A stretch of 64,000 nucleotides of DNA from a virus: IMG/VR virus record IMGVR_UViG_3300034096_000868, positions 1-64,000 of that record. One strand, given 5' to 3'. The translations under genes and the position numbers were made by a program. Positions within the stretch are counted from its first letter, which is position 1. The number at the start of each line of letters is the position of its first letter. Below the pieces are notes generated by a model. It did not search any database. It was not told where the DNA came from and saw only the letters and a program-made list of their open reading frames with translations. Positions 4,631-63,055 of the stretch are shown one piece after another.

Positions 4631-6457
4631 TTGAGTGTAAATTACACCGACTTTTCGCCCGTTATAAAATATGGAATCCCTGATTATAAAAGGGATAGTC
4701 CACAATGGTTCTCATGGCTCGAAGAACAATTACATTACATTCTTAACGGATATACGCATGGTGGCACTACTATCACTGGTAGGCTATATTTCAAACTAAA
4801 TTTTTTCAAGATACTTCACTTAGAAGATGGAGATAGTCGTGAAAAAATGATTAGTCCTTACTATGTAGATGCTCAAAAAGACTTATATGATTTACTTGAT
4901 TACTGCTATGAAAATGAAAGAGATTTGATAGTTGGTAAAGGTAGAGATAAAGGATTTAGTTACGATTTAGCAAATATTTCACTATACGAAACTCATTTTT
5001 TCAAGGATAATCATATCATAATGCTATTTCCTAGTGGAACTTCTCCTGCAAAGCAACAATTCAAGAATAAGTACAAATTAGGTTGGCAACATTTACTAGA
5101 TGATTTTAAGGTAGACCCTGGTCTTTCAAATAATGCTGATTTATTAAAATATGGTTGGGTTGAAACTGATGAAGAAACGGGTAGAAAAACAGAACGTGGC
5201 AATTTATCTTCACTCACTATGCTTGAAGTAGTAAATGCCGATGTAGGTAAATCTGGACGTTTTAAGGTTATGGGATTAGAGGAGTTTGGGGAGATTAAAG
5301 ACCCATTAAAACTTATTCAAACATCAAGAGCGAATTTACAAAAAGGTGCTAAAAAGTTTGGTACTATCATAGCTGGAGGTACGTCAAATGCATTCAATCA
5401 TGGATATAAAGATTTTAGAACTTTGTGGTTTAATCACAATGATTATGGATTTGAAAAACTATTTATCCCTGCAAATAAAGCTTTATGGGGATTTGTTAAA
5501 GAAAATGGAGATAGCGATATGGAGGGTGCTGAAAAGTGGGTACTTGATAGAAGAAAAGGACTAAAAGACGATATTCTCACCATTGAGATGCAAAATTACC
5601 CTTTAACTGAAAAGGAAATGTTTGTATCAATCAATCAAAGTCCATTTAATACAAACTACATATCATCGCAAATAGCCGATATTATGACTAACAAGGCTAT
5701 TGAAAGTCAAATTAAAACGGGAAATTTATATAAAGATAACAAGGATGGTAGTATAAAATTTGCAGAGTGCCTAGATGGTAGATGGAAAATTTACTTGCAT
5801 CCAAAGAAAGGACTTATTAATAAAGATGTGGGTGCGGTAGATCCATACAATAAAGGCGATGGAGGACAATTTGCTACATCAAAAGGTGCAATAGTAATTT
5901 ATAGACCATTTAATGGATTGAGCGAAATCGGGAATTTGCCGATTTGCATTTATCATAATAGGCCCAAAACTAAGGATATGTTTTTTGAGGATTGCTTACT
6001 TACTGCAATGTACTATGATTGCCAATTATTATTTGAACATCAATTTGACGATTGGGCTGATTATTTTATCAAACGTAATGCACAGAAGTATTTAAAAAAT
6101 AGACCAAACTTAGTAGATAATATTTATAGCAAAAATAACAATCAAAAATATGGAGTACCAGCAACGCATCAATCTAAAGGAACTGCAGTTGAGGTGGCTA
6201 TTAGGGATTTCGATGCAAACTGGGAAAATCATGTTTTTATTGAATTGTTAGATGAATTAAGTAACTTTGGAACGGAAAATGTGGATTTAGCTATGGCATA
6301 TATTTGGGCTGTATTACACGCAGAGGACAATATAAAAATGCTTCCAGAGTTTATGCCAAAGAAAAAAGCAAAGCCGTTTATTCCATATACAATACATAGT
6401 GGGAATAAGATGATAGTAATAAGTACAGTCGAGCAACAGAAAATGATGACACGATAA
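4631..6457 (+). CDS. terL: Terminase large subunit
   Basis: Packaging motor ATPase and headful nuclease, 608 residues. ATPase: an atypical Walker A around VGKGRDKGFSY, Walker B around VMGLEEFGE and a coupling motif with GGTSN. Nuclease (RNase H-like): GAVDPYNKGDGG with the first metal-binding Asp, LLFEHQFDDW with the second acidic group, and ENVDLAMAY with the third. It starts with TTG at 4631, since no ATG or GTG lies in frame nearby, and is followed after 1 base by the portal gene. The family is clear from motif order and neighbours; the packaging strategy cannot be read. Confidence 0.88.
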   Translation: MSVNYTDFSPVIKYGIPDYKRDSPQWFSWLEEQLHYILNGYTHGGTTITGRLYFKLNFFKILHLEDGDSREKMISPYYVDAQKDLYDLLDYCYENERDLIVGKGRDKGFSYDLANISLYETHFFKDNHIIMLFPSGTSPAKQQFKNKYKLGWQHLLDDFKVDPGLSNNADLLKYGWVETDEETGRKTERGNLSSLTMLEVVNADVGKSGRFKVMGLEEFGEIKDPLKLIQTSRANLQKGAKKFGTIIAGGTSNAFNHGYKDFRTLWFNHNDYGFEKLFIPANKALWGFVKENGDSDMEGAEKWVLDRRKGLKDDILTIEMQNYPLTEKEMFVSINQSPFNTNYISSQIADIMTNKAIESQIKTGNLYKDNKDGSIKFAECLDGRWKIYLHPKKGLINKDVGAVDPYNKGDGGQFATSKGAIVIYRPFNGLSEIGNLPICIYHNRPKTKDMFFEDCLLTAMYYDCQLLFEHQFDDWADYFIKRNAQKYLKNRPNLVDNIYSKNNNQKYGVPATHQSKGTAVEVAIRDFDANWENHVFIELLDELSNFGTENVDLAMAYIWAVLHAEDNIKMLPEFMPKKKAKPFIPYTIHSGNKMIVISTVEQQKMMTR

Positions 6458-16038: not shown

Positions 16039-16215
16039 ATGGAAAAAGAACTTAAAGAACTTTTAAAACTCAAAGAAAACGTAGTGAGGTGGAATATGTG
16101 TGCTGAACTCGATGAAAGGCTAGGATTAGACCCAACAAAATCAAATGAAAGTGCATTGTTTTACGAAAATGAATTAAATAGTAAATTGAAAAAGATTGTT
16201 GAAGCTTATGGGTAA
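16039..16215 (+). CDS. Small hypothetical protein ending at first cassette site
   Basis: A complete 58-residue frame (MEKELKELLKLKENVV..., ending KIVEAYG) 5 bases after the replication gene. It is helical and charged. Its TAA stop is the TAA of the first attC-like site, and no matching left arm exists upstream, so it is the last resident phage gene before array 1. It may be an original gene truncated by the array insertion. Confidence 0.5.
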   Translation: MEKELKELLKLKENVVRWNMCAELDERLGLDPTKSNESALFYENELNSKLKKIVEAYG

Positions 16216-16291
16216 CGGTTTCGGGCTTGGCGAAGTTTGCGAAGCGTTGGCTTGTGCGGTCGGGCAAATTGCGCCAAACCCGTGTTATAAG
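16213..16291. other. attC-like recombination site 1
   Basis: Left box TAACGG, arms CGGGCTTGGCG with AAGTTTG against CAAATT with GCGCCAAACCCG, a 20-base loop, then the right box GTTATAAG at 16284-16291. The arms are imperfect complements with unpaired bases on one side, as in integron attC sites. The right box continues into GTTATAAGAAGTAGC, whose complement closes the cassette at 16595-16609. Confidence 0.75.
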
Positions 16292-16325
16292 AAGTAGCGG
16301 TTTATTAACGATAAATTTAATTAAA

Positions 16326-16595
16326 ATGGAAATAGAAAAACAAATTGATGATTTAACCTTTGAAAGATGGAGGTTTACATTTATGTATGGAACAATATTC
16401 TTAGATGGATATTGCTTACTGCAAAAAGAAAGCAAAAGGCACAAAAATTTTAAAGTGCTGAAACAATACGATAGAATAATAGGAAGGAGTAATACAATAG
16501 TGGAAAGTGAAGTGCCTTTTACTGATGAATTAAAAGCAGAAGCATTAAATCAATTTGTTTCTACGATAAAAGTTCTTAAATGGAGCGAAAGGTAG
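16326..16595 (+). CDS. Cassette protein, 89 aa, unknown
   Basis: Begins MEIEKQIDDLTFERWRFTFM; a compact alpha/beta protein with several aromatics and basic residues (KESKRHKNFKVLKQYDRI). The same frame stays open upstream to 16227, but that part is the attC-like hairpin, so ATG 16326 after the A-rich leader is the sensible start. It is the first payload gene of array 1. No family recognised. Confidence 0.65.
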   Translation: MEIEKQIDDLTFERWRFTFMYGTIFLDGYCLLQKESKRHKNFKVLKQYDRIIGRSNTIVESEVPFTDELKAEALNQFVSTIKVLKWSER

Positions 16596-16605
16596 CTATT
16601 TCTTA

Positions 16606-16633
16606 TAACGGTAAAATAATAAAAGCAGTAGCG
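16606..16633. other. Remnant cassette site 2
   Basis: Only TAACGG and a trace of a right arm (AAGCAGTAGCG) remain, joined by an A/T-rich spacer of about 12 bases. The central hairpin and the GTT box are missing. The right arm of the next site (GCTAAC with GACCGC) has no partner here, so this site is probably inactive and the two flanking cassettes would move only as one unit. Confidence 0.5.
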
Positions 16634-16635
16634 AT

Positions 16636-16887
16636 ATGAAAGAACAAATTGAAAATATATTGATAAAGGTTGATGAAGGCACGATGCCTGTTCAACAAGC
16701 ACTAAGCGAGCTATTGCTTTTATTTAGTGTTAGCGGTTCGTTGCCATCTATTGACCCATTAGATGACGAGAATAGCGAAATACATAAAATAGGTAGAGAA
16801 ATAGCTGAAATGTCCGATGAAGAGTTTGATAATAATTGTAAAGCAATAACAGATATGCTGTCAAGGTCGAAAGGCAATGACCGCTAA
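16636..16887 (+). CDS. Cassette protein, 83 aa, unknown
   Basis: An acidic helical protein (KVDEGTMPVQQALSELLLLF, then DEENSE-type acidic stretches and KIGREIAEMSDEEFDNNCKA). Its C-terminal part resembles short interaction domains rather than an enzyme. The stop TAA at 16885-16887 is the left box of site 3. Function unknown. Confidence 0.65.
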   Translation: MKEQIENILIKVDEGTMPVQQALSELLLLFSVSGSLPSIDPLDDENSEIHKIGREIAEMSDEEFDNNCKAITDMLSRSKGNDR

Positions 16888-17014
16888 CGGTCAAGTGTTG
16901 CCGAAGTGGGGGATTGTTAGTACAAAAGCCCATTAAAAGCACTACTGCCGAACACAGTACAAATGTTCATTAAATGCACGTTTGCCCCCCATTTTGGCAA
17001 CACTATGTTGGTGG
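16885..17014. other. attC-like recombination site 3
   Basis: TAACGGTCAAG, arm TGTTGCCGAAGTGGGGG pairing with CCCCCCATTTTGGCAACA, loop of about 80 bases, right box GTTGGTGG at 17007-17014. The arms are strongly complementary with single unpaired bases. The loop is much longer than in site 1. Confidence 0.75.
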
Positions 17015-17049
17015 TTAGTGCCTTTGTTAAACTGATTAAATAGAAAAAA

Positions 17050-17526
17050 ATGTCAAATAGAAATTTCAGAGGTCGGGTATTTCACTACTCAAATGATTGT
17101 GGCTGGGTTTATGGCGACTTTCATAAAATGTATGATGGTAGTTTATACCATTATATAACTACATTACCTGACTTAGACAAAGACTGGCAAACTTCATATT
17201 ATAATGTAGTTGCTGATACTATTACCCAAAGTACAGGATTAAAAGACAAAGATGGTAAAGAAATATTTGAAGGTGATATTGTTAAACATAAATTTCGTAG
17301 AATATGGCAAACTAAAGAACATATTTCAACAGTTGTTTGGTGTCAAGAATATTGCTGTTATTACTTGTTTGACGGTATTTGTAACCATAGAATGAGAGAT
17401 GATATGGTTTATGAAATAATTGGTAATTTCTTTGATAATAAGGATTTGGTAAAGGGCTATCCTCCTTGTCCAAAAGTAGAGCCATCAATAACAAATAAAA
17501 ACTCATCCGATGACTTGCCATTTTAG
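17050..17526 (+). CDS. YopX-family protein with SSB-like acidic tip
   Basis: A 158-residue member of the YopX family of small phage and mobile-element proteins, shown by STGLKDKDGKEIFEGDIVKH (about 58-77) with the following beta strands (STVVWCQEYCCYYLFDG) and VYEIIGNFFDNKDL. YopX proteins have no proven enzymatic function. The last five residues are DDLPF after a Ser/Asn-rich linker, the tip by which bacterial SSB binds partner proteins. It is the third gene of array 1, unrelated to its neighbours, which suggests acquisition as a cassette. Confidence 0.78.
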   Translation: MSNRNFRGRVFHYSNDCGWVYGDFHKMYDGSLYHYITTLPDLDKDWQTSYYNVVADTITQSTGLKDKDGKEIFEGDIVKHKFRRIWQTKEHISTVVWCQEYCCYYLFDGICNHRMRDDMVYEIIGNFFDNKDLVKGYPPCPKVEPSITNKNSSDDLPF

Positions 17527-17548
17527 GGTGTCTCGTGGCATTACCACC

Positions 17549-17679
17549 AACGTTAAACGGCTTTGTGACTGTGGTGGCAATAGAATTACTACTGTTCGTT
17601 ACAGCACAAATGCCAAATAGGATTACCAAAGCTGAATATCAGCACATCAGCCACCATAGCACAAAACCGATGTTGGTGG
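17549..17679. other. attC-like recombination site 4
   Basis: Left box CCAACG, arm CGGCTTTGTGACTGTGGTGGC pairs with GCCACCATAGCACAAAACCG, right box GTTGGTGG at 17672-17679. The long loop (about 75 bases) creates a spurious open frame across the site. The outer arms of the preceding cassette (GTTGGTGGTTAGTGCC and GGCATTACCACCAAC) are complementary. Confidence 0.75.
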
Positions 17680-17713
17680 CAGGTTTTTTTCTCGGTTTAC
17701 AAATTTTAAAATT

Positions 17714-18199
17714 ATGCAAGTAATAGAAGAAATAGTAAAGATTTATCAAGCCAAAGACGGCACAAAATTCAAAGACAAAGGCGAATGTCAAACCTACGAA
17801 AAAGGTATTCCGTATGGTAATTATTATGCTAAACTTTCAAACCTTAAAACTTTTGAAGTTACTGAAAACCATTTAAAACTAATAAAAAGAAATGTTATTG
17901 AATGGGTTTTTCATAGAGACGATTATAATGCTGGTCATTTTTACCAAGATACAAAACGACCTTATGGAAATTCTGATTGGGTTGGTGATATTGCTGAAAT
18001 TTTAGGAATTGAACCCGATTGCTCAAATCCAAATGACGAAGACGAAAAATGGTTTTCTGAAAGTTTAGAGTACTTTTTAGTTTGTCATCATATTGATATG
18101 AGAATTGTAATGGAAATACTTTGTCAAAATTTGTCAATTCACAAAGGTAAATATGAAAGAGAAAGCGTTTATTCTTCGGACTGGGTGGCGGTCGCTTAA
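17714..18199 (+). CDS. Cassette protein, 161 aa, unknown
   Basis: The N-terminus MQVIEEIVKIYQAKDGTKFK with DKGECQTYEK looks like the start of small phage proteins that open with a beta hairpin and a Cys/Tyr/Glu motif. The rest is mixed alpha/beta, acidic and aromatic (HRDDYNAGHFYQ, NPNDEDEKWFSESLEYF). No catalytic motif is recognised. Its stop lies 11 bases before site 5. Confidence 0.65.
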   Translation: MQVIEEIVKIYQAKDGTKFKDKGECQTYEKGIPYGNYYAKLSNLKTFEVTENHLKLIKRNVIEWVFHRDDYNAGHFYQDTKRPYGNSDWVGDIAEILGIEPDCSNPNDEDEKWFSESLEYFLVCHHIDMRIVMEILCQNLSIHKGKYERESVYSSDWVAVA

Positions 18200-18209
18200 A
18201 CTTGCCACC

Positions 18210-18337
18210 AACGGTTCGCAGCTATATTTAGTTGCGGATTTAGAATCACAAATTATCAAATTAGTAATAACTTAAATAGAAAGAAAAATGTCAAAGAAAC
18301 CACAGAAACCGCAATTGAATATAGCTGTTGTTAGCGG
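18210..18337. other. attC-like recombination site 5 (inside duplicated unit)
   Basis: Left box AACGG at 18210, arm CAGCTATATTTAGTTGCGG pairs with CCGCAATTGAATATAGCTG, right box GTTAGCGG at 18330-18337. The right arm and box lie inside the coding sequence of the 68-aa gene, so its first 14 or so codons are part of the recombination site. Identical to site F at 59807. Confidence 0.75.
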
Positions 18338-18494
18338 TAGTTTTTATTGGGTTCGTCCGTTCCATAAAGACGAGTTTGAACCTGCTAAATGTAAAGAACT
18401 ATACGGAACAGATAAGCTATATTTTTTTTTCACAAATGGAAGTCGAATGGAAGTTGAACGTGCTTGGGAAGTAGAGCCGTTAAATTACCGCTAA
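18288..18494 (+). CDS. Duplicated cassette protein, copy 1 (68 aa)
   Basis: A 68-residue protein starting MSKKPQKPQLNIAVV and containing SFYWVRPFHKDEFEPAK, possibly one small beta-rich domain. It is identical to the protein at 59885. The start codon is inside the attC-like hairpin, and the N-terminal basic/proline stretch is encoded by the right arm. The stop TAA is the left box of site 6. Function unknown; being kept twice in one genome suggests recent copying. Confidence 0.65.
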   Translation: MSKKPQKPQLNIAVVSGSFYWVRPFHKDEFEPAKCKELYGTDKLYFFFTNGSRMEVERAWEVEPLNYR

Positions 18495-18544
18495 CGTTTT
18501 GCGTATAAAAAATCGTTTTAATGTTTTTTATACGCTGTTAGCAG
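18492..18544. other. attC-like recombination site 6 (short)
   Basis: TAACGTTTT, arm GCGTATAAAAAA pairs with TTTTTTATACGC across a loop of about 10 bases, right box GTTAGCAG at 18537-18544. At 53 bp it is the shortest intact site. The sequence after TAACGTTTT is where this copy of the duplicated cassette stops matching copy 2. Confidence 0.7.
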
Positions 18545-18634
18545 TAGTACGGATTTAAACCGCAAATGCTCATTCGGAGAACTGAACCTTTTTATTTTCT
18601 TTTTTGAGCGAGGACAAAATATTAAAATAAAATT

Positions 18635-19618
18635 ATGACAATAGATTTAAGATACGGAGATACAATAGAACAAATGAAATTGATACCTGATAAAAGTATT
18701 GACTTTATTTGCTGTGATTTACCTTATGGGACAACCGCTTGTATTTGGGATATAATTATACCATTTGATAAACTTTGGAGGGAATATAAAAGGATAATCA
18801 AAGATAAAGGAGTAATTGTATTGTTTGGTAGCGAACCATTTTCATCATTATTAAGAACATCTAATTTAGAGTGGTATAAATATGATTGGATTTGGGAAAA
18901 GAATAACGCAGGGAATTTTCAATTAGTAAATTATCAACCATTAAAAATACACGAAACCATATCAGTTTTTTATAATGAAACACCTAATATGGAATTTGCT
19001 AATATTATGGTTGAAAATATGAAAAGACTAAACTTAAAGCAAATTGATATTTCAAAATTAGAACTTTCAAGAACAGGTGGAATGACAGGTTGGGTTACAA
19101 ATAAAATGAACGGTTCTCAATTACCAACAGAACAACAATGGAGTAAAATATGTGATTTGTTTGGTATTGAAAATAAATATGACGAAATACTTTTAACTGT
19201 AAAAAAGATTACATATAACCTTGAACTTGATGATACCAAATTAGTATTATCAAATAAAGGGAAAGCTGGAACATTAGGACATCTATCAAGTGAAAGTAAA
19301 AGAGAAACATACATACAAGATAAAACAGGTTATCCAAAAAGTATATTGAAATACAATAGAGAGAATGGATTACATCCAACTCAAAAACCTATACCATTGA
19401 TGGAATTTTTAATAAAGACATATTCCAATGAAGGTGAAACTGTATTAGATAATACGATGGGTAGTTGTTCAACAGGAATTGGATGTATAAATTTGAACCG
19501 AAACTTTATTGGGATAGATAATACAAAAAAGTATTTTAATATTTCTTTAAAGAGGGTGGAAGAAAAAAGAAAAGAAAAAGATTTTAACGTAGTAACTTCA
19601 TTCGGAGATGGAATGTAG
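18635..19618 (+). CDS. Orphan DNA methyltransferase (N6-A/N4-C type)
   Basis: A SAM-dependent amino-methyltransferase of 327 residues. Catalytic motif IV is DLPYGTTACIWD (about 28-39), followed by IVLFGSEPF, YDWIWEKN and, near the C-terminus, HPTQKPIPLMEFLIKTYS and LDNTMGSCSTGIG, the SAM-binding FxGxG-like motif. Motif IV before the SAM motif is the beta-type order. A central insert (about 140-200, TGGMTGWVTNKMNGSQLPTE with EQQWSKICDLFG) looks like an HTH target-recognition part. No restriction enzyme is nearby. As the last payload of array 1 it may protect phage DNA from host restriction. Confidence 0.8.
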   Translation: MTIDLRYGDTIEQMKLIPDKSIDFICCDLPYGTTACIWDIIIPFDKLWREYKRIIKDKGVIVLFGSEPFSSLLRTSNLEWYKYDWIWEKNNAGNFQLVNYQPLKIHETISVFYNETPNMEFANIMVENMKRLNLKQIDISKLELSRTGGMTGWVTNKMNGSQLPTEQQWSKICDLFGIENKYDEILLTVKKITYNLELDDTKLVLSNKGKAGTLGHLSSESKRETYIQDKTGYPKSILKYNRENGLHPTQKPIPLMEFLIKTYSNEGETVLDNTMGSCSTGIGCINLNRNFIGIDNTKKYFNISLKRVEEKRKEKDFNVVTSFGDGM

Positions 19619-45683: not shown

Positions 45684-45713
45684 CAAAGATAGTTATTTTT
45701 TTCATTAATCAAA
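45684..45713 (-). promoter_or_regulatory. Leftward promoter before the terminator-leader
   Basis: On the minus strand TTTG at 45713-45710, 18 bases, TATCTTTG at 45691-45684. It lies just downstream of the methyltransferase stop (45705) and drives a leader of about 70 nt into the terminator at 45584. Confidence 0.5.
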
Positions 45714-48578
45714 ATTTATTTTCAAATTTCTGATTATTTTTTCCAAACAAGCTACTACTATTGAGTTGCCACCTTGACGATACAACTGCGAATCAGATAA
45801 ACTATTCTTAGGATTGGCCTCATTGTATTTTTTCACATTATCCATAAAACTTTCCTCGAAGTCCATCAAACGGAATACTTCGGTTGGGGTTAATCGGCGT
45901 ATTCTTTTGTTCTGATTTGTAGCTAATCCACTTCTATCGCTTCTTAAAGCAGGAGAATATTTATCATAAACCCTTGTTTCTTCTCCAAAACTATTAGTTA
46001 AATCTAAAATAACAGGCTCTTGTGTTCCACCTTGAATAAAGTTTTGCTCAACTGCAATCTTAGGCTCTTGATTCCCACCACCCATAGTATGAATTGTTGG
46101 TGCAACACCATTTTTATCATAAACTCTACCACTTTGCTCATGTGTTTTATCCCACTTGCCACCCGTTAGTTGATATTCTACTATCGGATTAGGTTCAGAA
46201 CTAACCATAACTAAGTTATCTTTTTGAACAGTTGTAATTGCATTGCTAGTGCTACTCTCATTTGGTTCAATATTCTGCTCAATAACTCCATCCTCATTAT
46301 ATCTGCCTCGCATAGCAACTATTGTAGGTTCGTCAAGTAATATATTTTTACTTCTAGCATCCGTATCTAAAGTAGTCATTACTCCATTTACATCATAAAC
46401 CCTATTATGCTGAAATGGTTGTTTGCCTCCACTCTCTTTACTAGGATTTAATTGTCTTACTTCTGGAGTGTTATCTTCAATCACACCACTCTCCACATAT
46501 CCATTGGCATAACCATGTGTTCTTGCACACATATTTGGACTTACTCCATTATCTGAATAAACTTGACTTGCTTGTGTATCTTGATTGATAAATCCTACTT
46601 TGAGAATATTATCAGTAGGACATAAAGCTGCGTTAGCTCTTATTGTTACTGCTATTGAGTTTTCATCTTTATAATCTACTGCAAATCCTGTTCCTTTTTT
46701 ATTATGCCTATCAGCATGACTTGTTAGCATATTTAACATACTATCACTCAAAAAATACTTTTCATCTACAATAGGTTCTAAAACATCTTTTAATCTTAGT
46801 TTTAAAACTTCTTTTATAGGGAATCTGAAACTATTATCTGCATCATCACGAATACCAACAATAAATATCCTTTCTCTATTTTGTGGCACTCCATGTTCTT
46901 TTGCATTTAGCACCTGGAAATAGATATGATATGGCACACTATCCTCATAAGGAATAAAAGTTGCATTGCCATTAATTGATTTACCCCCTAGATAATTAAT
47001 CCATTCGGAAAAAGTCTTACCATACTTAGCTTTTTTATCCGTTTTGTCATGTGAAAGCAAACCTTTGACATTTTCAAAAATGAAGTATTTGGGTTTATTT
47101 TCACGTATGAAGTCTAGTGAACTGAAAAACAAGACACCTCGTTTGTCATCTTTACCCTTTCTTTTACCAGCCAAAGAAAATGATTGGCAGTTATGTACTA
47201 TTGCTTGATTAGCGGTATAAGAATGATCGTTTTCAACCGTTATATCATAAACTTCTTCAACTTCTTCGGTTTGTTTAATGTATTTTATTGGATACCATAT
47301 TTTATCGTCAATAACGACAGCGTTAGATTGCTTACGCATTTCTTTTCTAAATTCTAATACATAATAATCTCTTTGATTAACTACTCTGCCTTGTATTATT
47401 GTTGTGTTTGGAGTTTTAACTATTCTTAAATTAGAATTTACATTGTGTATTTTAGCAATACAAAGTTGCAAACCCATCAATAATTCTTTACTAATAGAAG
47501 TTGCTCTAAATGCATCCTTATGAATATGTCCATCTCCATCCATATATCCATTAACGAAATGTTTTAATATGTCAATAGGTAGGTTTATAATAGATTGAGG
47601 TATCCTTTTATTTATTGCTCCTTTACCTAAACCTATTTCTTTTATAAGATTTACTAATCCGTTTGAAAATATAAATAATTTGCGAACTCCATTTATTTCT
47701 TTACTAATATGATGTTTTACTTTTATTTTGGTAGATATTTCATCAACTTTATCTTTTCCTATTGCTAACATGACAGCGTCTCCTTTTGATTTGCCTTTAT
47801 ATTTCGACTCTCTTAACCATCCGTCAGCGACATATCTGCCTAATATGTAAGCTATTTCTTCTGTTATGCTATATTTATTTTCAATTAATTGAGGTATATT
47901 AATGCCAATAAAATGATTCTTAGTTAGATTTTTAGCTTCTATCCATTTAGGTTCACTAAATACTCTTATTTGTGTTCTATTTTTATATACATAAGACTTT
48001 TCTCTAACATAATATTTATGATTCTCTGTGGTTTTAGTTTCTAATATTCCTTGAGCTTTTACATTTAATATTTTAGAGTATTTACTTCCTTTCGCTATTA
48101 CCTTTTCGTACTTATTATTGTGAGTTAATACCATATCTCCAATATTAATATCTTTAATTTGAACAAATCCTTCGCTTGTGTTTATTAAAGTATCTCCAGA
48201 AAAGCAAGGTACAGAGGACATATACAAGTCGATTGGATCTACCGGAACTTCTCTTTCATACATATTAAAAGGAAAATAGAATGAGAAAGTTTTAGCAAAC
48301 TCATTGGCATCTACTAATATTTGCTTATCTTCATCACATACTTCAATACTAGCATCCATTAGTGCAATCCTTTTTACTTCATCACAAAAGAACTTATGTT
48401 TTTTAGATTGTGCAATCTGAACATCTTTATCTGTTCCATATTGAATACAATAGTTTAGCCTAGCATAGTAATCAAAATCACACGCAAAACTTTCCTCATA
48501 GTCAATACCTAATCTTTTAACTGCTTGAATTAGAGAACCTACTCCACAGCAGTCCGAACCAACTTTAATTTTAGCCAT
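45705..48578 (-). CDS. C5-cytosine DNA methyltransferase interrupted by an intein
   Basis: 957 residues before splicing. Methyltransferase motif I is VGSDCCGVGSLIQAVKRLG (6-24). Residues 125-463 are an intein inserted exactly before the catalytic cysteine of motif IV, so the spliced enzyme reads SSVPCQSFSLAGKRKG. Further motifs: FIFENVKGLLSHDK (motif VI, ENV), PQNRERIFIVGIRDDA (motif VIII) and, at the C-terminus, RRLTPTEVFRLMDFEESF and LYRQGGNSIVV (IX/X). The target-recognition region (about 670-880) has four degenerate repeats of the type RVYDxNGVxPT. Cytosine methylation of phage DNA against host restriction is the likely purpose. Confidence 0.88.
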   Translation of the reverse strand: MAKIKVGSDCCGVGSLIQAVKRLGIDYEESFACDFDYYARLNYCIQYGTDKDVQIAQSKKHKFFCDEVKRIALMDASIEVCDEDKQILVDANEFAKTFSFYFPFNMYEREVPVDPIDLYMSSVPCFSGDTLINTSEGFVQIKDINIGDMVLTHNNKYEKVIAKGSKYSKILNVKAQGILETKTTENHKYYVREKSYVYKNRTQIRVFSEPKWIEAKNLTKNHFIGINIPQLIENKYSITEEIAYILGRYVADGWLRESKYKGKSKGDAVMLAIGKDKVDEISTKIKVKHHISKEINGVRKLFIFSNGLVNLIKEIGLGKGAINKRIPQSIINLPIDILKHFVNGYMDGDGHIHKDAFRATSISKELLMGLQLCIAKIHNVNSNLRIVKTPNTTIIQGRVVNQRDYYVLEFRKEMRKQSNAVVIDDKIWYPIKYIKQTEEVEEVYDITVENDHSYTANQAIVHNCQSFSLAGKRKGKDDKRGVLFFSSLDFIRENKPKYFIFENVKGLLSHDKTDKKAKYGKTFSEWINYLGGKSINGNATFIPYEDSVPYHIYFQVLNAKEHGVPQNRERIFIVGIRDDADNSFRFPIKEVLKLRLKDVLEPIVDEKYFLSDSMLNMLTSHADRHNKKGTGFAVDYKDENSIAVTIRANAALCPTDNILKVGFINQDTQASQVYSDNGVSPNMCARTHGYANGYVESGVIEDNTPEVRQLNPSKESGGKQPFQHNRVYDVNGVMTTLDTDARSKNILLDEPTIVAMRGRYNEDGVIEQNIEPNESSTSNAITTVQKDNLVMVSSEPNPIVEYQLTGGKWDKTHEQSGRVYDKNGVAPTIHTMGGGNQEPKIAVEQNFIQGGTQEPVILDLTNSFGEETRVYDKYSPALRSDRSGLATNQNKRIRRLTPTEVFRLMDFEESFMDNVKKYNEANPKNSLSDSQLYRQGGNSIVVACLEKIIRNLKINFD
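47190..48206 (-). mobile_element. Intein with LAGLIDADG homing endonuclease
   Basis: Residues 125-463 of the methyltransferase, 339 aa. The splice start is Cys125 (CFSGDTLINTSEGF, block A), block B is around TTENHKYYVRE, the LAGLIDADG domain has two motifs (EIAYILGRYVADGWL about 241-255, LKHFVNGYMDGDGH about 338-351), block F is VYDITVENDHSYTANQAIVHN in two parts, ending His-Asn463, with Cys464 as the +1 residue. All residues needed for self-splicing and both endonuclease acidic centres are visible, so it should be active. Confidence 0.88.
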
Positions 48579-56991: not shown

Positions 56992-57007
56992 CGGAGCAAT
57001 TTTGCTC

Positions 57008-57129
57008 AACGTCCGAGTGCTTGGCGAAGTTGCCGAACACAAAAGTTAAACTGAAAAACAAAAGTTGAAATTATGGATAAAGTTGAATTGAAAGACGAAA
57101 CGGCAATTTTGCCAAACCCGTGTTATGTG
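57008..57129. other. attC-like recombination site A
   Basis: Left box AACG, arm CTTGGCGAAGTTGCCG pairs with CGGCAATTTTGCCAAACCCG, right box GTTATGTG at 57122-57129. The loop and the right arm contain the ATG and first 16 codons of the methyltransferase gene. A small remnant, TAACGGAGCAATTTTGCT, precedes it and may be what remains of an older site. Confidence 0.75.
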
Positions 57130-57696
57130 CTGGGCGGTTTAAAGAAGTATTCTGTTATTTACGCTGACCCTGCTTGGAGTTACGATTTTAAAGAGCCTAC
57201 TGCATCCAAAGGTGGGGCGAAAGGAAGTGGTTATTCAGCAGGTGTTAATTACTACTATGGAACAATGACAACTAAACAGATACTTGAATTGCCTGTAAAA
57301 AACATTTGCGAAAAGGATTGTGTGCTTTTTCTATGGGCGACTAATCCGCTTTTACCCGAAGCCTTAGAAACGATGAAGGCTTGGGGGTTCAAATACAAAA
57401 CGATGATTACTTGGCACAAAGAACGATGCAAAGGAATGGGATATTGGTTTCGTGGGCATACCGAACATATTTTAGTAGGGGTAAAAGGGAATGTAAAAGC
57501 GTTTCGTTCTTTGGAACACAATATAAAAAAGTTGCCCGTAGAAAAGCATAGCAAAAAGCCTGATGAATTTAGGCAAATGATTGAAGCAGTTACAGGCAAT
57601 TTAGGAAATAGAATAGAATTGTTTGCAAGGAATAACCACGAGGGATGGGATGCTTGGGGAAATGAAGTAGGTTCGTCTGTCGAAGTAGGATGGTAG
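57073..57696 (+). CDS. MT-A70-family adenine methyltransferase (cassette)
   Basis: 207 residues. The MT-A70 catalytic motif appears as ADPAW (YSVIYADPAWSYDF, about 26-39; DPPW is commoner), followed by YYYGTMTTKQILELP, CVLFLWATNPLLPEALETMK, GYWFRGHTEHILVGVKG and KPDEFRQMIEAVTGN with ELFARNNHEGWDAWGNE at the end, all family-typical. It probably methylates adenine in DNA. ATG 57073 lies in the attC-like loop; GTG 57127 at the right box is an alternative, which would drop 18 non-conserved residues. First payload of array 2; no restriction enzyme nearby. Confidence 0.85.
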   Translation: MDKVELKDETAILPNPCYVLGGLKKYSVIYADPAWSYDFKEPTASKGGAKGSGYSAGVNYYYGTMTTKQILELPVKNICEKDCVLFLWATNPLLPEALETMKAWGFKYKTMITWHKERCKGMGYWFRGHTEHILVGVKGNVKAFRSLEHNIKKLPVEKHSKKPDEFRQMIEAVTGNLGNRIELFARNNHEGWDAWGNEVGSSVEVGW

Positions 57697-57705
57697 CCTT
57701 GCACA

Positions 57706-57834
57706 TAACGGTCTAGGGCTTGACGCAGGTAGGAATAGAAAGCATAATTGCTTGTTTACTTACCAATGCTGAAAAGAGTGCTAAAGCCGAATAAAGCACC
57801 AAAGCCCTACTTGCGTTCAAACCCTTGTTATATG
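57706..57834. other. attC-like recombination site B
   Basis: TAACGGTCTAGGGCTTGACGCAGGTAGG against CCCTACTTGCGTTCAAACCC (read in two arms of 10 or more pairs), loop of about 70 bases, right box GTTATATG at 57827-57834. The cassette before it closes with GCCTTGCACATAAC, complement of its own left end at 57122. Confidence 0.75.
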
Positions 57835-57878
57835 CCGTTTTTATCGGCTCAAATTTTTAACTTTTAAATAATAAATAT

Positions 57879-58214
57879 ATGTCTAAAATAACACAAGAAG
57901 ATTATACAAAAGCACTTGAAACTATTAAAAAATTTCAATGTCAATGCTCAAAATGCGGAACACAATTTGGTGATAGGTGGGAATGGAATGCAAATTCATT
58001 CAAACTACAATTAAATATAGATTGCCAAAGTACAGACGCTTTATTTGGCGAAAAAGCAAATGAAATAGGGTTTAATCATCCTGCAATAGAAAAAGGTGCA
58101 GGGTATCAAAGATTAACGATTTCAAGCGGTAGAGAATTGCCTTATAGACTTTGTCCATCTTGTCATAGAAAGTTTTTTCGTCTTATAGGGGACTTTCTGC
58201 AAAATGGCATATAA
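57879..58214 (+). CDS. Cassette protein with zinc-ribbon, 111 aa
   Basis: Two cysteine pairs, CQCSKC near residue 21-26 and CPSCH near residue 95-99, look like a zinc ribbon flanking a beta-rich middle (NSFKLQLNIDCQSTDALFGE). It may bind nucleic acid or protein. The stop TAA is the left box of site C. Family not recognised. Confidence 0.66.
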   Translation: MSKITQEDYTKALETIKKFQCQCSKCGTQFGDRWEWNANSFKLQLNIDCQSTDALFGEKANEIGFNHPAIEKGAGYQRLTISSGRELPYRLCPSCHRKFFRLIGDFLQNGI

Positions 58215-58308
58215 CGTGATGCGGCTTTGTGTCTGTTTGCCCCTTGCTCAAAGTTTCAAGTTATCACAAATGTTGATGGGGCAAATAGCACAAAACCGCT
58301 GTTATAGG
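58212..58308. other. attC-like recombination site C
   Basis: TAACGTGAT, arm GCGGCTTTGTGTCTGTTTGC pairs with GCAAATAGCACAAAACCGC, right box GTTATAGG at 58301-58308. The arms are among the best matched in the window, with unpaired bases on one side only. Confidence 0.78.
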
Positions 58309-58354
58309 CAGTAGGGATTTTTAGCAGAATGTTTAATTTAAAAACAAATAAAAA

Positions 58355-58792
58355 ATGAACAACTTAAAAACAAAAGAAGATAGACAAGAAGCTATCAAAC
58401 AAATTGAAAAAAGTTTTTTAACTACAATCAAAAGTAATGGGCTTGAACTTTCAGAAGAAGCTGTTTGCAGAATAAACCAAAATAGTATTGAACTTGGTAT
58501 TTGTGCAATAGGAAAGTATGCTGAAAAAGGTTATCAAATGGCTTTTGCATCGGCTATTGAATTGTATGCAAAAAGCTATGATGATGAACTTGGATTTGGA
58601 AGAAAAGAAAACGAAATAAACTTTGGTAGTTCTGGTTCTTTTAATCCATCTGAACGAGAAAGTTATTGGAGAACTATACACGCTGCATCTGTATTGAAAA
58701 ATTGGGATATTGTTTCAGAAATTGTAAATACCCATTGCAAAATGTATTGTGATTTGAGCAAGAAAATCTTTGAGGTAAATGTTCAATCGTAG
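58355..58792 (+). CDS. Cassette protein, 145 aa, unknown
   Basis: An all-helical protein (EDRQEAIKQIEKSFLTTIKS, KGYQMAFASAIELYAKSYDD), with a Gly/Asn/Ser turn region near 100 and a helical end with several Cys (NTHCKMYCDLSKK). No motif recognised. Its stop lies 19 bases before site D. Confidence 0.65.
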   Translation: MNNLKTKEDRQEAIKQIEKSFLTTIKSNGLELSEEAVCRINQNSIELGICAIGKYAEKGYQMAFASAIELYAKSYDDELGFGRKENEINFGSSGSFNPSERESYWRTIHAASVLKNWDIVSEIVNTHCKMYCDLSKKIFEVNVQS

Positions 58793-58809
58793 CACGTCTG
58801 CCCTATTGC

Positions 58810-58937
58810 CTACGTTGAGCATATACGAAGGCAGGGCTTTGAAACTCAAATGCTCGTTTACTTCCGAAAGTTTAATCAACATATAAAAGCTGAAAGTTTG
58901 CACTTCTGCCCTGCTTTTGTATATGTATTGTTGGCAG
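58810..58937. other. attC-like recombination site D
   Basis: Left box CTACG (one A shorter than the others), arm CATATACGAAGGCAGGGC pairs with GCCCTGCTTTTGTATATG, right box GTTGGCAG at 58930-58937. The box deletion may weaken recombination at this end. Confidence 0.72.
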
Positions 58938-58973
58938 TAGTGCTTTTTGTCAAACTAGAATAAATTTAAGAAT

Positions 58974-59264
58974 ATGGAATTATGTAATTTTTCAAAGGCT
59001 TGGGTTGGTAATTGTAAAAATGAAAAACCTTGCAAAGAACACGCTGAAATTAAATGCGGTTCTTGTGGTGAGCCTGCCACAAGAGAATGTGCTGAAACTG
59101 GTCAATTTGTTTGCGGTGTTCCTCTGTGTGATAATTGTGAGCATACTATCTACGAAGATGGTACAAATGGAGGTATTGGTTTTAATCAACAACGACCACA
59201 CGAAGGAATGAAGTCACATTGTAAAAAGTCAGAACAAAAATTTAAAAGCTGGTATGAGCGGTAG
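58974..59264 (+). CDS. Cassette Cys-rich zinc-binding protein, 96 aa
   Basis: Eleven cysteines, with CGSCGEPATREC, CGVPLCDNC and a His in between (KEHAE, CEHTIY, KSHCKK), arranged like a double zinc finger of B-box/treble-clef type. Probably a binding module rather than an enzyme. The stop is followed after 19 bases by site E. Confidence 0.66.
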   Translation: MELCNFSKAWVGNCKNEKPCKEHAEIKCGSCGEPATRECAETGQFVCGVPLCDNCEHTIYEDGTNGGIGFNQQRPHEGMKSHCKKSEQKFKSWYER

Positions 59265-59283
59265 TGTCGGTAGCATTACTGCC

Positions 59284-59369
59284 AACGTTTTGCAGATTGG
59301 CGAAGTTGCAAAATTGCGTTGGATTTGTGCGGTGGGATTTTGCAATTTTTGCCAATGTGCTGTTATCAG
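59284..59369. other. attC-like recombination site E
   Basis: AACGTTTTGCAG, arms TTGGCGAAGTTGCAAAAT and ATTTTGCAATTTTTGCCAA, right box GTTATCAG at 59362-59369. The loop GCGTTGGATTTGTGCGGTGG is nearly the same as in site 1 (GCGTTGGCTTGTGCGGTCGG), so some sites are related by descent. Confidence 0.77.
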
Positions 59370-59403
59370 CAGTTCTTTTTTCACACTTAAATAATTATCA
59401 AAA

Positions 59404-59805
59404 ATGAATACATTAAAATTAACACTAAAAAAACAATGGTTTGACCTTATCAAAGAAGGTATCAAAACCGAAGAGTACAGAGAAATAAAGCCTTATTGGT
59501 TTGAAAGATTAGTTTTTCAATATGAAAAGGCTTTTAAATATTGCACTGGATATGATTACAAGCAACAACTTTATGTAAACGAAGGAATACAACATACTCT
59601 TTCTGAAAGTAAAAAATCAATGGTTGCAATGAAACCTTTTGACTTTGTAGAATTTACAAATGGATATAATTCTACAAGCCCAAAAATCACTTTAGAGTGT
59701 CAAAATATTATAATTGGGCAAGGATTAGAAGAATGGGGAGCAGTCAAGGGCGAAAGATATTTTATAATCAAACTCGGTCGTGAGGTTGGTCGGCAGAATT
59801 GCTGA
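59404..59805 (+). CDS. ASCH-domain protein (cassette)
   Basis: A 133-residue PUA-like ASCH domain. LKLTLKKQWFDLIKEGIKTE with EYREIKPYWFERL (residues 4-36) is the conserved family opening (LxLKxxWFDxIxxGxKTEEYRE), followed by PFDFVEFTNGYNSTSPKITL and the closing beta strand WGAVKGERYFIIKLG. ASCH proteins bind RNA or modified nucleotides. A role in protecting or regulating phage RNA is inference. Confidence 0.82.
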   Translation: MNTLKLTLKKQWFDLIKEGIKTEEYREIKPYWFERLVFQYEKAFKYCTGYDYKQQLYVNEGIQHTLSESKKSMVAMKPFDFVEFTNGYNSTSPKITLECQNIIIGQGLEEWGAVKGERYFIIKLGREVGRQNC

Positions 59806-59806
59806 T

Positions 59807-59934
59807 AACGGTTCGCAGCTATATTTAGTTGCGGATTTAGAATCACAAATTATCAAATTAGTAATAACTTAAATAGAAAGAAAAATGTCAAAGAAACCAC
59901 AGAAACCGCAATTGAATATAGCTGTTGTTAGCGG
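59807..59934. other. attC-like recombination site F (duplicate of site 5)
   Basis: Identical to site 5: AACGG at 59807, arms CAGCTATATTTAGTTGCGG and CCGCAATTGAATATAGCTG, right box GTTAGCGG at 59927-59934. The base before AACGG differs from copy 1 (GAT here, ACC there), which marks the crossover point. Confidence 0.77.
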
Positions 59935-60091
59935 TAGTTTTTATTGGGTTCGTCCGTTCCATAAAGACGAGTTTGAACCTGCTAAATGTAAAGAACTATA
60001 CGGAACAGATAAGCTATATTTTTTTTTCACAAATGGAAGTCGAATGGAAGTTGAACGTGCTTGGGAAGTAGAGCCGTTAAATTACCGCTAA
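59885..60091 (+). CDS. Duplicated cassette protein, copy 2 (68 aa)
   Basis: Same 68 residues as the protein at 18288, including the N-terminal part encoded by the hairpin right arm. The identical DNA block is 291 bp (59807-60097 against 18210-18500) and ends in the left boxes at both sides. Neighbouring cassettes are different in the two arrays, so this cassette moved on its own. Confidence 0.68.
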   Translation: MSKKPQKPQLNIAVVSGSFYWVRPFHKDEFEPAKCKELYGTDKLYFFFTNGSRMEVERAWEVEPLNYR

Positions 60092-60216
60092 CGTTTTCGG
60101 GCTTTGCGTAGTAGGGGATTAAATGCACTACGCTTGGTCTTAGCACAAATGTTTATTAGAAGCAGATAGTTTGGTTTAGCACTATCGCCCCTATTACGCA
60201 AAGCCCGTGTTATATG
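60089..60216. other. attC-like recombination site G
   Basis: TAACGTTTT, arm CGGGCTTTGCGTAGTAGGGG pairs with CCCCTATTACGCAAAGCCCG (nearly perfect, 20 bases), loop of about 70 bases, right box GTTATATG at 60209-60216. Confidence 0.8.
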
Positions 60217-60307
60217 AAGGTGGGATTTTCACGCACTACACTTAAATAGAAGCACGTAAAAAGAAAAAGAAAAAATGAGCGTGGGAAACAATTTAATTTA
60301 AACAAAA

Positions 60308-60853
60308 ATGGGAACAAGAAATTTAACAATGGTTATTAACCAAGAAGGAGAAAAGAAAGTAGCACAATACGGACAATGGGATGGTTATCCATCTGGAGTT
60401 GGGGTAGGTGTTCTTAAATTCCTTAAAGACAAAGAGGTGTTTGAAAAATTCAAAGTCAACTTATCTAAAGTGAGATTTTTAGATGAAGAAGGTGTTGATA
60501 AGGAATTTATTGAAAGCTACAATAAAAATGCTCCACAATGGAGCAATGAACCAGACAACAGAACCGAAGAACAAAAACGTTGGTTTTCTACTTATTGCAA
60601 TCGTGATTTAGCAGAAGAAGTTTTAACCAATATCGCCAACTCTACTGACAAAGAAATTGTTTTAATGGATAGAGAAAACACCGCAAAAGGTGATGGATGG
60701 GTAGAATATTCGTATGTTATAAACTTGAAAGAAAATACGCTTGGCGTTTATGGACACATTGACCAAGAGCCAATGAAAGTTTACAAACTTGATGAACTAC
60801 CTGAAGAAGATGTTTTCGTTTCTGAATTGGAAGGAGTTGAAGAAGAAGATTAA
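60308..60853 (+). CDS. Conserved phage/cassette hypothetical protein, 181 aa
   Basis: MGTRNLTMVINQEGEKKVAQ with QYGQWDGYPSGVGVGVLKFL (1-45) is the signature of a widespread, uncharacterised protein family of phages, plasmids and gene cassettes (MGTRxLTxVxxxGExKVAQYGQWDGYPSGxG). The C-terminal part is acidic (DELPEEDVFVSELEGVEEED). The gene has an unusually long leader (92 bases from the right box) and its cassette ends are complementary over a longer stretch than others. Confidence 0.75.
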   Translation: MGTRNLTMVINQEGEKKVAQYGQWDGYPSGVGVGVLKFLKDKEVFEKFKVNLSKVRFLDEEGVDKEFIESYNKNAPQWSNEPDNRTEEQKRWFSTYCNRDLAEEVLTNIANSTDKEIVLMDRENTAKGDGWVEYSYVINLKENTLGVYGHIDQEPMKVYKLDELPEEDVFVSELEGVEEED

Positions 60854-60854
60854 A

Positions 60855-60922
60855 AAGAGCGTGGGCGGATTTTTTCTTTTTCTTTCTCACGAAAGTTCAA
60901 TCGAAGCACGTCTGCCCACTTT
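60855..60922. repeat. Additional inverted repeat at cassette end
   Basis: GTGGGCGGA and TCTGCCCAC form a stem around a pyrimidine-rich 45-base loop (TTTTTTCTTTTTCTTTCT), which itself complements AAAAAGAAAAAGAAAAAAT in the leader at about 60258-60276. TCAATCGAAGCACGTCTGCC is repeated with one change at 58783-58802. These are likely remains of earlier sites or a terminator. Confidence 0.45.
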
Positions 60923-60926
60923 CATA

Positions 60927-61056
60927 TAACGGCATTGGGCTAAACGCAGTAGGGGTTTCCTACCTGTAAAGATGGAATGGCAGACAATTCAAGTTTAACT
61001 TTGTTCTTGATTGTTTGGACGACATCCCCCTATTGCGTTTTAACCCATGTTATAAG
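60927..61056. other. attC-like recombination site H
   Basis: TAACGGCATTGGGCTAAACGC pairs over two arms with GCGTTTTAACCCATG and AGTAGGGG with CCCCCTA, right box GTTATAAG at 61049-61056. It separates the 181-aa gene from the ORF-less cassette. Confidence 0.75.
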
Positions 61057-61160
61057 TCTGGTGGCGGGGCGTAGTGATTAAGGTAACAATAAGGGCAGAG
61101 TAAACTGCACAAACCCTAAATTAAATCCACTACCATTAATGCCCGCCACTTGCTTATAAC
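61049..61160. mobile_element. ORF-less cassette
   Basis: Between the right box of site H and the left box of site I are only about 100 bases with no meaningful ORF. Its ends are the longest arm pair in the array: GTTATAAGTCTGGTGGCGGG and CCCGCCACTTGCTTATAAC. It could be a deleted cassette, a spacer, or a carrier of a promoter or small RNA, but no TAnnTTTG box is seen inside. Confidence 0.6.
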
Positions 61161-61248
61161 GGTTGGGTGTATGAGAAGGTTTGCTTGTAGAAACTTTCAA
61201 ATTACAACTGAACTTAATAGCAAACTTTCTTATACACTTTGTTATGTG
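61157..61248. other. attC-like recombination site I
   Basis: TAACGGTTGGGTGTATGAGAAG continues to GGTTTGC, pairing with GCAAACTTTCTTATACAC, right box GTTATGTG at 61241-61248. Loop about 35 bases. Confidence 0.75.
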
Positions 61249-61270
61249 TTGTTTTTAAATTAAATAAAAT

Positions 61271-61498
61271 ATGGAAACAGGAAATTTAATTAAATCAACC
61301 AATTTCAACACAACACCATATTGGGTTGTAAAATGTGATAATTCAAATTTAATTGGTAATAGAAATGGTGAATTACCAATAGACCCTTTGAGTTTTAATT
61401 TTCATCCTTGGTCTATCTTAGAAAACAGAACGGTTAAATTTGAATTGGTTGAAATTGGTAGTGATGATAGATTGAAATGGTATGCTCGTCTAAAATGA
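61271..61498 (+). CDS. Cassette protein, 75 aa, unknown
   Basis: A small beta-rich protein (PYWVVKCDNSNLIGNRNGEL, RTVKFELVEIGSDDRLKWYA) that looks like a single barrel domain. Its TGA stop (61496-61498) is 4 bases before site J. No family recognised. Confidence 0.62.
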   Translation: METGNLIKSTNFNTTPYWVVKCDNSNLIGNRNGELPIDPLSFNFHPWSILENRTVKFELVEIGSDDRLKWYARLK

Positions 61499-61502
61499 CA
61501 CA

Positions 61503-61584
61503 TAACGTTTTGCAGATAAGCGAAGGCACAAATAGCGTTGGCTTTAGCGAGGAATTTGGGCTTTTGCTTATGTGCTGTTAGCAG
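61503..61584. other. attC-like recombination site J
   Basis: TAACGTTTTGCAGATAAGCGAAG and the opposing CTTTTGCTTATGTGC form the arms, loop AGCGTTGGCTTTAGCG resembles those of sites 1 and E, right box GTTAGCAG at 61577-61584. It is the last complete site; only a TAACG box remains at 61868. Confidence 0.74.
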
Positions 61585-61624
61585 TAGGTTTTTTAACTAA
61601 TTATAAATTTAAAATAAATACAAA

Positions 61625-61858
61625 ATGGAAAATCAAGAAGTATTAAAATTCACTTGGAAAAAAGGAATTAAAGAAGTAAAACCTGCACACCCAATGGTTC
61701 AAAATTGGATGTTTACAGAAGAAACAGAAGAACAAGCAAGTTTAGCACATTATATGGCTGTTGTTGCTGAAAAGAATGGATTAACGGCAAATGATTTGCA
61801 ACACTTATTCCCTGCTGTCCTTCGGATGTTGAAAGATAGTTCAGCGTGGTCTAAGTAA
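61625..61858 (+). CDS. Last cassette protein, 77 aa, unknown
   Basis: A helical small protein (EETEEQASLAHYMAVVAEKN, DLQHLFPAVLRMLKDSSAWS) with an N-terminal beta hairpin. Its cassette ends are GTTAGCAGTAGGTTTT and AAACTTACTGCTAAC. It is the payload nearest to the recombinase gene. Function unknown. Confidence 0.62.
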   Translation: MENQEVLKFTWKKGIKEVKPAHPMVQNWMFTEETEEQASLAHYMAVVAEKNGLTANDLQHLFPAVLRMLKDSSAWSK

Positions 61859-61922
61859 ACTTACTGCTAACGTGTATATGTATTCAATACTCACAATTTA
61901 TTAATAATCAAAAATATATATT

Positions 61923-62756
61923 ATGGATTTTCTAAAGTATCAAAATAAATTTAGAATTGATTTAGATTTAAAATATTCTAATTCTTTGCAAACTAGAAAT
62001 AATTATTTTTCTTGTGTTGTTAATTTTTTACAACATTTTAAAAATGAAAAAGAGCCTAAATCAATAAGTACTGATTCTATTAAATTATATTTGCTTTCTT
62101 TTAAAACTATAAATACTCGTAGAGCAAACTTATGTGCAATAAAAGCATTTTACAAGCTAACTGTGAATATGCCTAATAAAATAGATAGAGTTCCTTTTCC
62201 TCAAAAAGAAAGAAGATTACCTATTATTATAGATCAAATTGATGTACAGAAAATGTTTGATGTGTGTTCCAACTTGAAACACAAGTGTGTAATGGCAGTT
62301 CTCTATGGTACTGGAGTGAGAATATCCGAATTAATAGGCATTAAATTAAGTGATATTAGAAGAAATGAAAAGACTATTAGAATAATAGGCAAGGGGAATA
62401 AAGAAAGATTTGTGCCACTAAATGATAGCCTACTTCAATTAATAACAAATTATTGGAGAGAATATAAAACTAAAATATGGTTGTTTGAAAATGATTTATC
62501 ACATACTCAATATAGCAAAAGAAGTGTTGGTTTGTTTTTAAAATCATTTAAAGAAAAAGCAAACATAAAAAGTCCAGTAAGTCCTCATAAATTCAGACAC
62601 TCACACGCTACTGCATTATTAGAGCAAGGAACAGATTTAAGAATCATACAAAAGGAACTTGGACATAACTCAATAAAAACAACCCAATTATATACTCATG
62701 TATCTACAAATATTATAAGTAAAATAAACTCACCATTAAACAATATAAACATATAA
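61923..62756 (+). CDS. XerC/D-type tyrosine recombinase, candidate cassette integrase
   Basis: 277 residues. N-terminal SAM-like core-binding domain (1-95). Catalytic domain with Arg in YGTGVRISELIGIKLSDI, the Lys hairpin IIGKGNKERFVPLN, HKFRHSHATALLEQGTDLRI (His-x-x-Arg-His), QKELGHNSIKTTQLYTHVS (second His and the nucleophile Tyr) and a SPLNNI tail. It lies 65 bases downstream of the last cassette gene and points away from the array, the topology of an integron integrase. The roughly 20-60 residue insertion that defines true integron integrases between the Lys hairpin and the HxxRH motif is missing (about 45 residues separate them). Alternatives: phage integration into the host chromosome, or genome dimer resolution. 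Confidence 0.85.
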   Translation: MDFLKYQNKFRIDLDLKYSNSLQTRNNYFSCVVNFLQHFKNEKEPKSISTDSIKLYLLSFKTINTRRANLCAIKAFYKLTVNMPNKIDRVPFPQKERRLPIIIDQIDVQKMFDVCSNLKHKCVMAVLYGTGVRISELIGIKLSDIRRNEKTIRIIGKGNKERFVPLNDSLLQLITNYWREYKTKIWLFENDLSHTQYSKRSVGLFLKSFKEKANIKSPVSPHKFRHSHATALLEQGTDLRIIQKELGHNSIKTTQLYTHVSTNIISKINSPLNNINI

Positions 62757-62758
62757 AA

Positions 62759-63055
62759 ATGAAACTAGCAAAACCAACAACTGCACTAACAGAGGTGCTT
62801 TATGAACTGCTCACAAAGAAAAGTATAAGCAATGCAGATTTGCCTTATATGTGGGGTTTCCGTTCAAGAATAAGCAATTTAACTACTAAGTATGGTATTC
62901 AGTTAAATTCTACTATGATAACTGCTAAAAATAAGCATGGTAGAGCTTATTCATACGTACAACATCAGTTAATGAAAAGAAAAGATGCTTTAAAAACCTA
63001 TAATAAACTTATAGGAAATGAAAAAAAAGAAATTATCAAATATTTTAAAAAATAA
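62759..63055 (+). CDS. Small putative HTH protein, 98 aa
   Basis: A basic protein whose first 60 residues (TEVLYELLTKKSISNADLPY, then FRSRISNLTTKYGIQL) look like a winged-helix or HTH domain, with a Lys-rich helical end. It starts 2 bases after the recombinase stop, so both are probably in one transcript. It could be a recombination directionality factor or a repressor; no closer family is seen. Confidence 0.55.
   Translation: MKLAKPTTALTEVLYELLTKKSISNADLPYMWGFRSRISNLTTKYGIQLNSTMITAKNKHGRAYSYVQHQLMKRKDALKTYNKLIGNEKKEIIKYFKK

Follow-up and report, generated by a model that had tools for sequence, protein, structure and literature searches.

The stretch of DNA analysed here, referred to as the window, comprises 64,000 nucleotides of a 64,127-bp virus record in IMG/VR, in which genes for a terminase and a portal protein are present. 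With ~23% identity, the terminase is a distant relative of those of crAss-like and Flavobacterium phages, which makes a host from the Bacteroidota likely. The window belongs to a tailed phage of the Bacteroidota type and contains two arrays of cassettes. The following features are used throughout:

16212-19618, + strand: array 1, six cassettes, without an integrase beside it
16214, 16607, 16886, 17549, 18210 and 18493, + strand: boxes of array 1; end box at 19617
17050-17526, + strand: YopX-like cassette ORF
18207-18336, + strand: attC-like site of the repeated cassette, 5′ arm before the ORF, 3′ arm within the ORF
18212-18494, + strand: mobile cassette, array 1 copy, 283 bp, attC-like site followed by a 68-aa ORF
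18288-18494, + strand: ORF of this cassette, 68 aa, stop codon TAA within the next box
18495-19618, + strand: N6/N4 DNA methyltransferase cassette, replaced in the sister phage L013 by an MT-A70-like cassette with the same edges
57006-61871, + strand: array 2, ten cassettes
57008, 57707, 58213, 58797, 59284, 59807, 60090, 60928, 61158 and 61504, + strand: boxes of array 2; end box at 61869
57073-57696, + strand: MT-A70 methyltransferase cassette ORF; the start may be a later GTG outside the hairpin
59809-60091, + strand: mobile cassette, array 2 copy, 283 bp, flanks at chance identity
59885-60091, + strand: the same 68-aa ORF in the array 2 copy
61867-61922, + strand: attI-like site, a terminal TAACG box without hairpin, then TATATGTA, directly before the recombinase start
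61923-62756, + strand: Xer-like tyrosine recombinase, 277 aa, residues R133, K157, H222, R225, H248 and Y257, without the IntI-specific insertion

According to the original prediction, positions 18210-18500 and 59807-60097 carry the same DNA, and a repeat finder indeed returned 291 bp with 100% identity. The sequences beyond the repeat are unlike each other, as had been proposed: ungapped comparison of the 300-bp flanks gave 27.7% identity on the left and 26.3% on the right, which corresponds to chance. Both junctions had been placed exactly at the boxes. This holds for the AA^C ends, but the last shared bases (GTTTT after AAC) are coincidental, because the two different hairpins that follow both start with GTTTT; in the sister contig L005, GGTATC is found behind this cassette instead. 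Comparison with other contigs defines the mobile unit as 283 bp from AA^C to AA^C (18212-18494 and 59809-60091), and its right end coincides exactly with the TAA stop codon of its ORF. The hairpin assigned to the unit upstream of the ORF is present, but it is bigger than noticed at first, with the 3′ arm (18311-18335) lying inside the ORF. The encoded 68-aa protein, named D1, had no match in Pfam or NCBIfam and none in isolate phages. Its structure was predicted with low confidence (pLDDT 59), so that it is described here as mostly beta and nothing beyond.

Each cassette box opens a hairpin at its 5′ end. Between a short outer stem of the form nTAACG/TGTTAn and an inner stem of ~12-18 pairs, the 5′ side has a 3-5-base gap, and the loop may contain the gene start. 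Pairing of the box with its downstream arm was compared between 15 boxes of both arrays and 136 other AACG sites in the window, giving mean values of -22.0 and -10.3 kcal/mol, respectively (p = 1e-10). Folding with DNA parameters favoured the + strand over the - strand at 15 of the 16 sites, in line with the expectation for strand-specific folding. One imperfect palindrome able to fold as single-stranded DNA is thus present per cassette, as is typical of attC sites, and the site scanner used for the phage arrays also detects the sites of canonical integrons. Array 1, with two or more attC-like sites and no integrase nearby, has the composition by which a CALIN is defined. In D1, and in a fair number of the sampled cassettes, the gene ahead of a box terminates with the TAA of that box. 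A cut at the 3′ box of the hairpin, corresponding to the canonical phase of a gene followed by its site, was also considered and ruled out, with the comparative junctions lying at the 5′ box. Searching the window and two sister phages against Rfam returned nothing. As a separate observation, the longest MT-A70 ORF begins in a hairpin loop (57073-57126), its first codons encoding the hairpin arm, and the true start may be the GTG at about 57127.

The genes are oriented in a characteristic manner within the cassettes. With one criterion applied to phage arrays and canonical integrons alike, gene and cut box shared a strand in 134 of the 144 phage array intervals (134:10), compared with 2 of 34 canonical IntI intervals (2:32). 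The gene does not precede the attC-like site within the cassette, as it does in canonical integrons, and the phage cassettes are inverted in this sense.

The repeated cassette was also found in other contigs (L005, L006/L007, L008 and L011), with other flanks and with its boundaries at boxes. Its right neighbours vary, starting with GTTTTGCG, GTTTTCGG, GGTATCGG (L005), TGTACC after CCGCTAA (L006/L007) or GGCTACGC (L008). The left neighbours vary too, except that the sister phage L005 has the same left neighbour as the window; its cassette is 100% identical to the window copy over the 284 bases compared. The right junction CCGCTAA/TGTACC in L006/L007 puts the crossover at AA^C. Homologues of the cassette protein with 65-100% identity are encoded by eight viral contigs. 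In L009, L010 and L012, a common sequence surrounds the homologue of the cassette gene, and the left side is without a box. This homologue (70% identity, near position 5001) adjoins apparent tRNA genes, has its own promoter-like sequence and bears a box on the right only; it is perhaps a gene entering or leaving the cassette form.

Turnover of cassettes at the boxes is directly visible between sister phages. In L003, whose backbone is about 96% identical to the window and whose recombinase differs by one residue, the part of array 2 between 57011 and 61867 has given way to five cassettes that are all different, and both array edges are retained (left, ..GCTCAACG; right, TAACGTGTATATG). L013, which is 97.7-99.6% identical to the window, and L005 retain the repeated cassette in array 1, and the methyltransferase cassette next to it has been swapped between CCGCTAAC and TTCTTTATTTACGC. 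The junctions lie at the same base in array 1, array 2, L003, L013, L006 and L008; these comparative junctions place the exchange precisely at the core box, with the crossover at G^TT (AA^C).

Some further features were noted in the sister contigs. The first array 2 cassette of L003 (8150-8586), seen also at the end of L015, contains two T-arm-like motifs (GGAGGTTCGATTCCTC and GTGGGTTCGACTCCCAC) inside the hairpin, and no tRNA was called in the L003 cassette. The block 61867-63024, comprising the attI-like site and the recombinase, is 99.4% identical between the window and L003; since this exceeds the identity of the surrounding backbone (about 95-96%), it suggests a recent exchange of the block. 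Assembly forks were considered as additional support and then dropped: L015 and L004 end exactly at TAACG, but among 70 ends of other array contigs one lay at a box, with 1.05 expected, which is no excess.

The recombinase gene starts ~50 bases past the last box of array 2, and its product matches PF00589 (8.6e-41). Relatives are encoded on viral contigs of 63-170 kb, with identities of 71% (L004), 44% (G017), 41% (G015) and 35% (G016). G017 has terminase and portal genes of the window's type, G016 a phage-type DNA polymerase and a DNA transfer protein, and G015 a tail fibre and phage-type genes. The position of the recombinase is constant in all five lineages: in G017, G015 and G016, the gene lies directly 3′ of the terminal array box, and in L004 the box also adjoins the recombinase, the contig ending at this box so that the array itself is out of view. 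A non-palindromic site of the attI type was found at 61867-61922 and in the four other lineages. The catalytic residues R-K-H-R-H-Y are invariant in all six phage recombinases, and the IntI-specific insertion of ~45 residues is absent from all six, compared with its presence in 12 of 12 canonical IntI proteins.

Assignment of the recombinase to a known family gave scores below every curated cut-off. With TIGR02249 (integron integrase) it reached 157 bits at a cut-off of 265, while the IntI set scored 299-509 bits. The best family score was obtained with the NCBIfam equivalog of XerA, NF040815 (194.5 bits, cut-off 220), followed by those of XerD (182.7, cut-off 329.6) and XerC (177.6, cut-off 335). 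The nearest solved fold is XerA (5hxy), with IntI4 next among distinct proteins, and the C-terminal SPLxx motif is like that of IntI and unlike that of XerD. In a phylogenetic tree, the phage recombinases were separated from two Xer outgroup proteins with a support of 100/100 and, at the small sampling used, placed together with Bacteroidota plasmid recombinases outside the IntI clade. When the recombinase alignment was used to scan genome contigs, the sole hit was an ordinary XerD-like gene in a Nitrosomonadales MAG. A recombinase of the window's family was absent from seven of ten array-bearing viral contigs, and from others, most of these contigs being fragments.

The original prediction of site-specific copying or movement is well supported by the contigs with other neighbours, the swaps at boxes between sister phages and the tyrosine recombinase at the array edge. 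We consider it highly probable that the 283 bp form a gene cassette and belong to a phage-encoded, integron-like system with a recombinase lacking the IntI patch and with inverted cassettes. In this system, each cassette is made up of an attC-like site and a gene behind it in the same orientation. From the anatomy of the arrays and their comparison we infer the following course. When exposed as a single strand during replication of the phage DNA, the + strand of the site would fold into the hairpin, and the recombinase encoded at 61923-62756 would cut the folded site at AA^C, corresponding to G^TT on the opposite strand. The cut site would be joined to the attI-like site before the recombinase gene or to other attC-like boxes. 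In this way, cassettes could be inserted, excised or copied among array 2, array 1 and other phages, and an excised circle or an empty joint should have CCGCTAA joined directly to CGGTTCGCAGC.

Some observations speak against this explanation. The recombinase is without the additional domain of IntI around patch III, which PMC9668308, citing Messier and Roy (2001), describes as defining and necessary for integron recombination; it scores below the cut-off for integron integrases; and most of the array-bearing contigs checked are without a recombinase of this family. The missing insertion and the occurrence of array 1 and several other phage arrays without an adjoining integrase would also fit a host-encoded integron integrase that moves the cassettes in trans, with the phage recombinase being an ordinary enzyme of lysogeny or dimer resolution and a neighbour by chance. 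That a phage site can serve such an enzyme is documented for the Polaribacter phage P12002L, one site of which was recombined by IntI1 at G/TTRRRY in an assay published in PMC9892861. This alternative is nevertheless improbable in view of five recombinase lineages, down to 35% identity and in different phage types, that all follow a hairpin-less terminal box, and of the near-identity of the block 61867-63024 in the window and L003.

Hairpins of this kind could terminate transcription and phages are generally mosaic, so that modules might also be swapped between terminator-like hairpins by homologous or illegitimate recombination, with the boxes as shared short homologies. We regard this as very unlikely: the box offers only 4-5 shared bases, yet the junctions fall on the same base across arrays and contigs, and between sisters with 96-99% identity the exchanged tracts would cross the boxes. 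That the second cassette copy is a misjoined repeat in a single metagenome assembly is hardly credible, as array 1 with the cassette is also present in L005/L013, the cassette occurs elsewhere with other flanks, and the two arrays run on without a break and with regular structure to either side of each copy.

A survey of the cargo covered 56 cassette proteins, encoded by the window, by two of its sisters and by three further phages. Twelve N6_N4_Mtase, three MT-A70 and two Dam proteins were found, i.e. up to 17 (~30%) DNA methyltransferases; other cargo included YopX, RNA ligase and PAPS reductase. The methyltransferases may help the phages to escape host restriction. This cargo fits the orphan DNA methyltransferases that, according to PMC7468147 (Bellas et al. 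2020), are the commonest variable genes among near-identical environmental phages, and the methyltransferases in phage CALINs of PMC9892861 (Qi et al. 2023). With one degenerate pattern for one common site form, at least 120 stretches of IMG/VR contigs were detected, including at least 74 locus-strands with two or more sites (virus status as listed there). The array of G015 (L248-L249, IMGVR_UViG_3300043411_001575, 81-116 kb of a 170-kb contig) comprises at least 33 sites within 34 kb and many DNA methyltransferases. Outside the arrays, the - strand of the window encodes a C5-cytosine methyltransferase at 45705-48578 that is split by an intein with a Hint domain and a LAGLIDADG endonuclease. 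We think it probable, with less confidence than for the cassette itself, that these systems form a separate class of integrons in Bacteroidota phages, with a recombinase without the IntI domain acting on folded attC-like sites, inverted genes and an exchangeable wardrobe of anti-restriction methyltransferases shared across unrelated phages.

If this is true, phages own an integron-like machine for gene capture, and the need of the IntI-specific domain for attC recombination would be called into question. Standard integron searches would be expected to miss such arrays, or to list them as orphan attC clusters, because they require an IntI-type integrase. A mechanism would also be at hand for the long-noted rapid turnover of orphan methyltransferases in environmental phages. 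With the inverted orientation, the entry point of new cassettes would lie where transcription of the array arrives last, opposite to the situation in classical integrons.

In the literature covered, which was without preprints and with few subscription papers, we found no account of such arrays being served by a phage recombinase that lacks the IntI domain, and none of systematically inverted cassettes. Integrons and attC arrays as such are known in phages, including the Bacteroidota phage P12002L and with methyltransferase cargo, from PMC9892861, whose accessible text describes a search for IntI-type integrons by IntegronFinder and HattCI. Two P12002L sites share form and gene orientation with the window, whereas a dedicated patch-less phage recombinase with an attI-like site, a rule of inverted cassettes and swaps between sisters do not appear in that text. 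The flexible methyltransferase islands of PMC7468147 likewise have methyltransferases as chief variable genes; five of the variable genes there carried an integron gene cassette annotation, and the accessible text gives no general mechanism. From XerA, XerC and XerD, the window recombinase differs by scores below the cut-offs, the IntI-like SPLxx motif and the adjoining cassette array. Related tyrosine recombinases also adjoin small genes separated by hairpins on Bacteroidota plasmids (Chryseobacterium, Pontibacter and Rufibacter; L238, L239 and L285), the IntI insertion having been checked and found absent in Chryseobacterium and Pontibacter; however, the cassette genes of these plasmids are in canonical orientation, and recombinase and array point the same way. 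The hairpins of the Chryseobacterium plasmid are nearly identical 140-bp repeats.

With canonical integrons, the phage arrays share small genes separated by hairpins, crossover at AA^C (G^TT), cassette turnover, a hairpin-less insertion site beside the recombinase and, in attC orientation, a recombinase transcribed away from the array. The asymmetry of TAACG...TGTTA is that of the bottom strand of canonical attC sites, although the outer boxes depart from strict GTTRRRY (e.g. GTTAGCA, GTTATAG). The phage system differs in being phage-borne, in the recombinase without the ~45-aa IntI insertion and in the opposite cassette ORFs: viewed in attC orientation, the order of recombinase, attI and attC is the same, whereas the phage cassette genes are reversed and read towards the recombinase.
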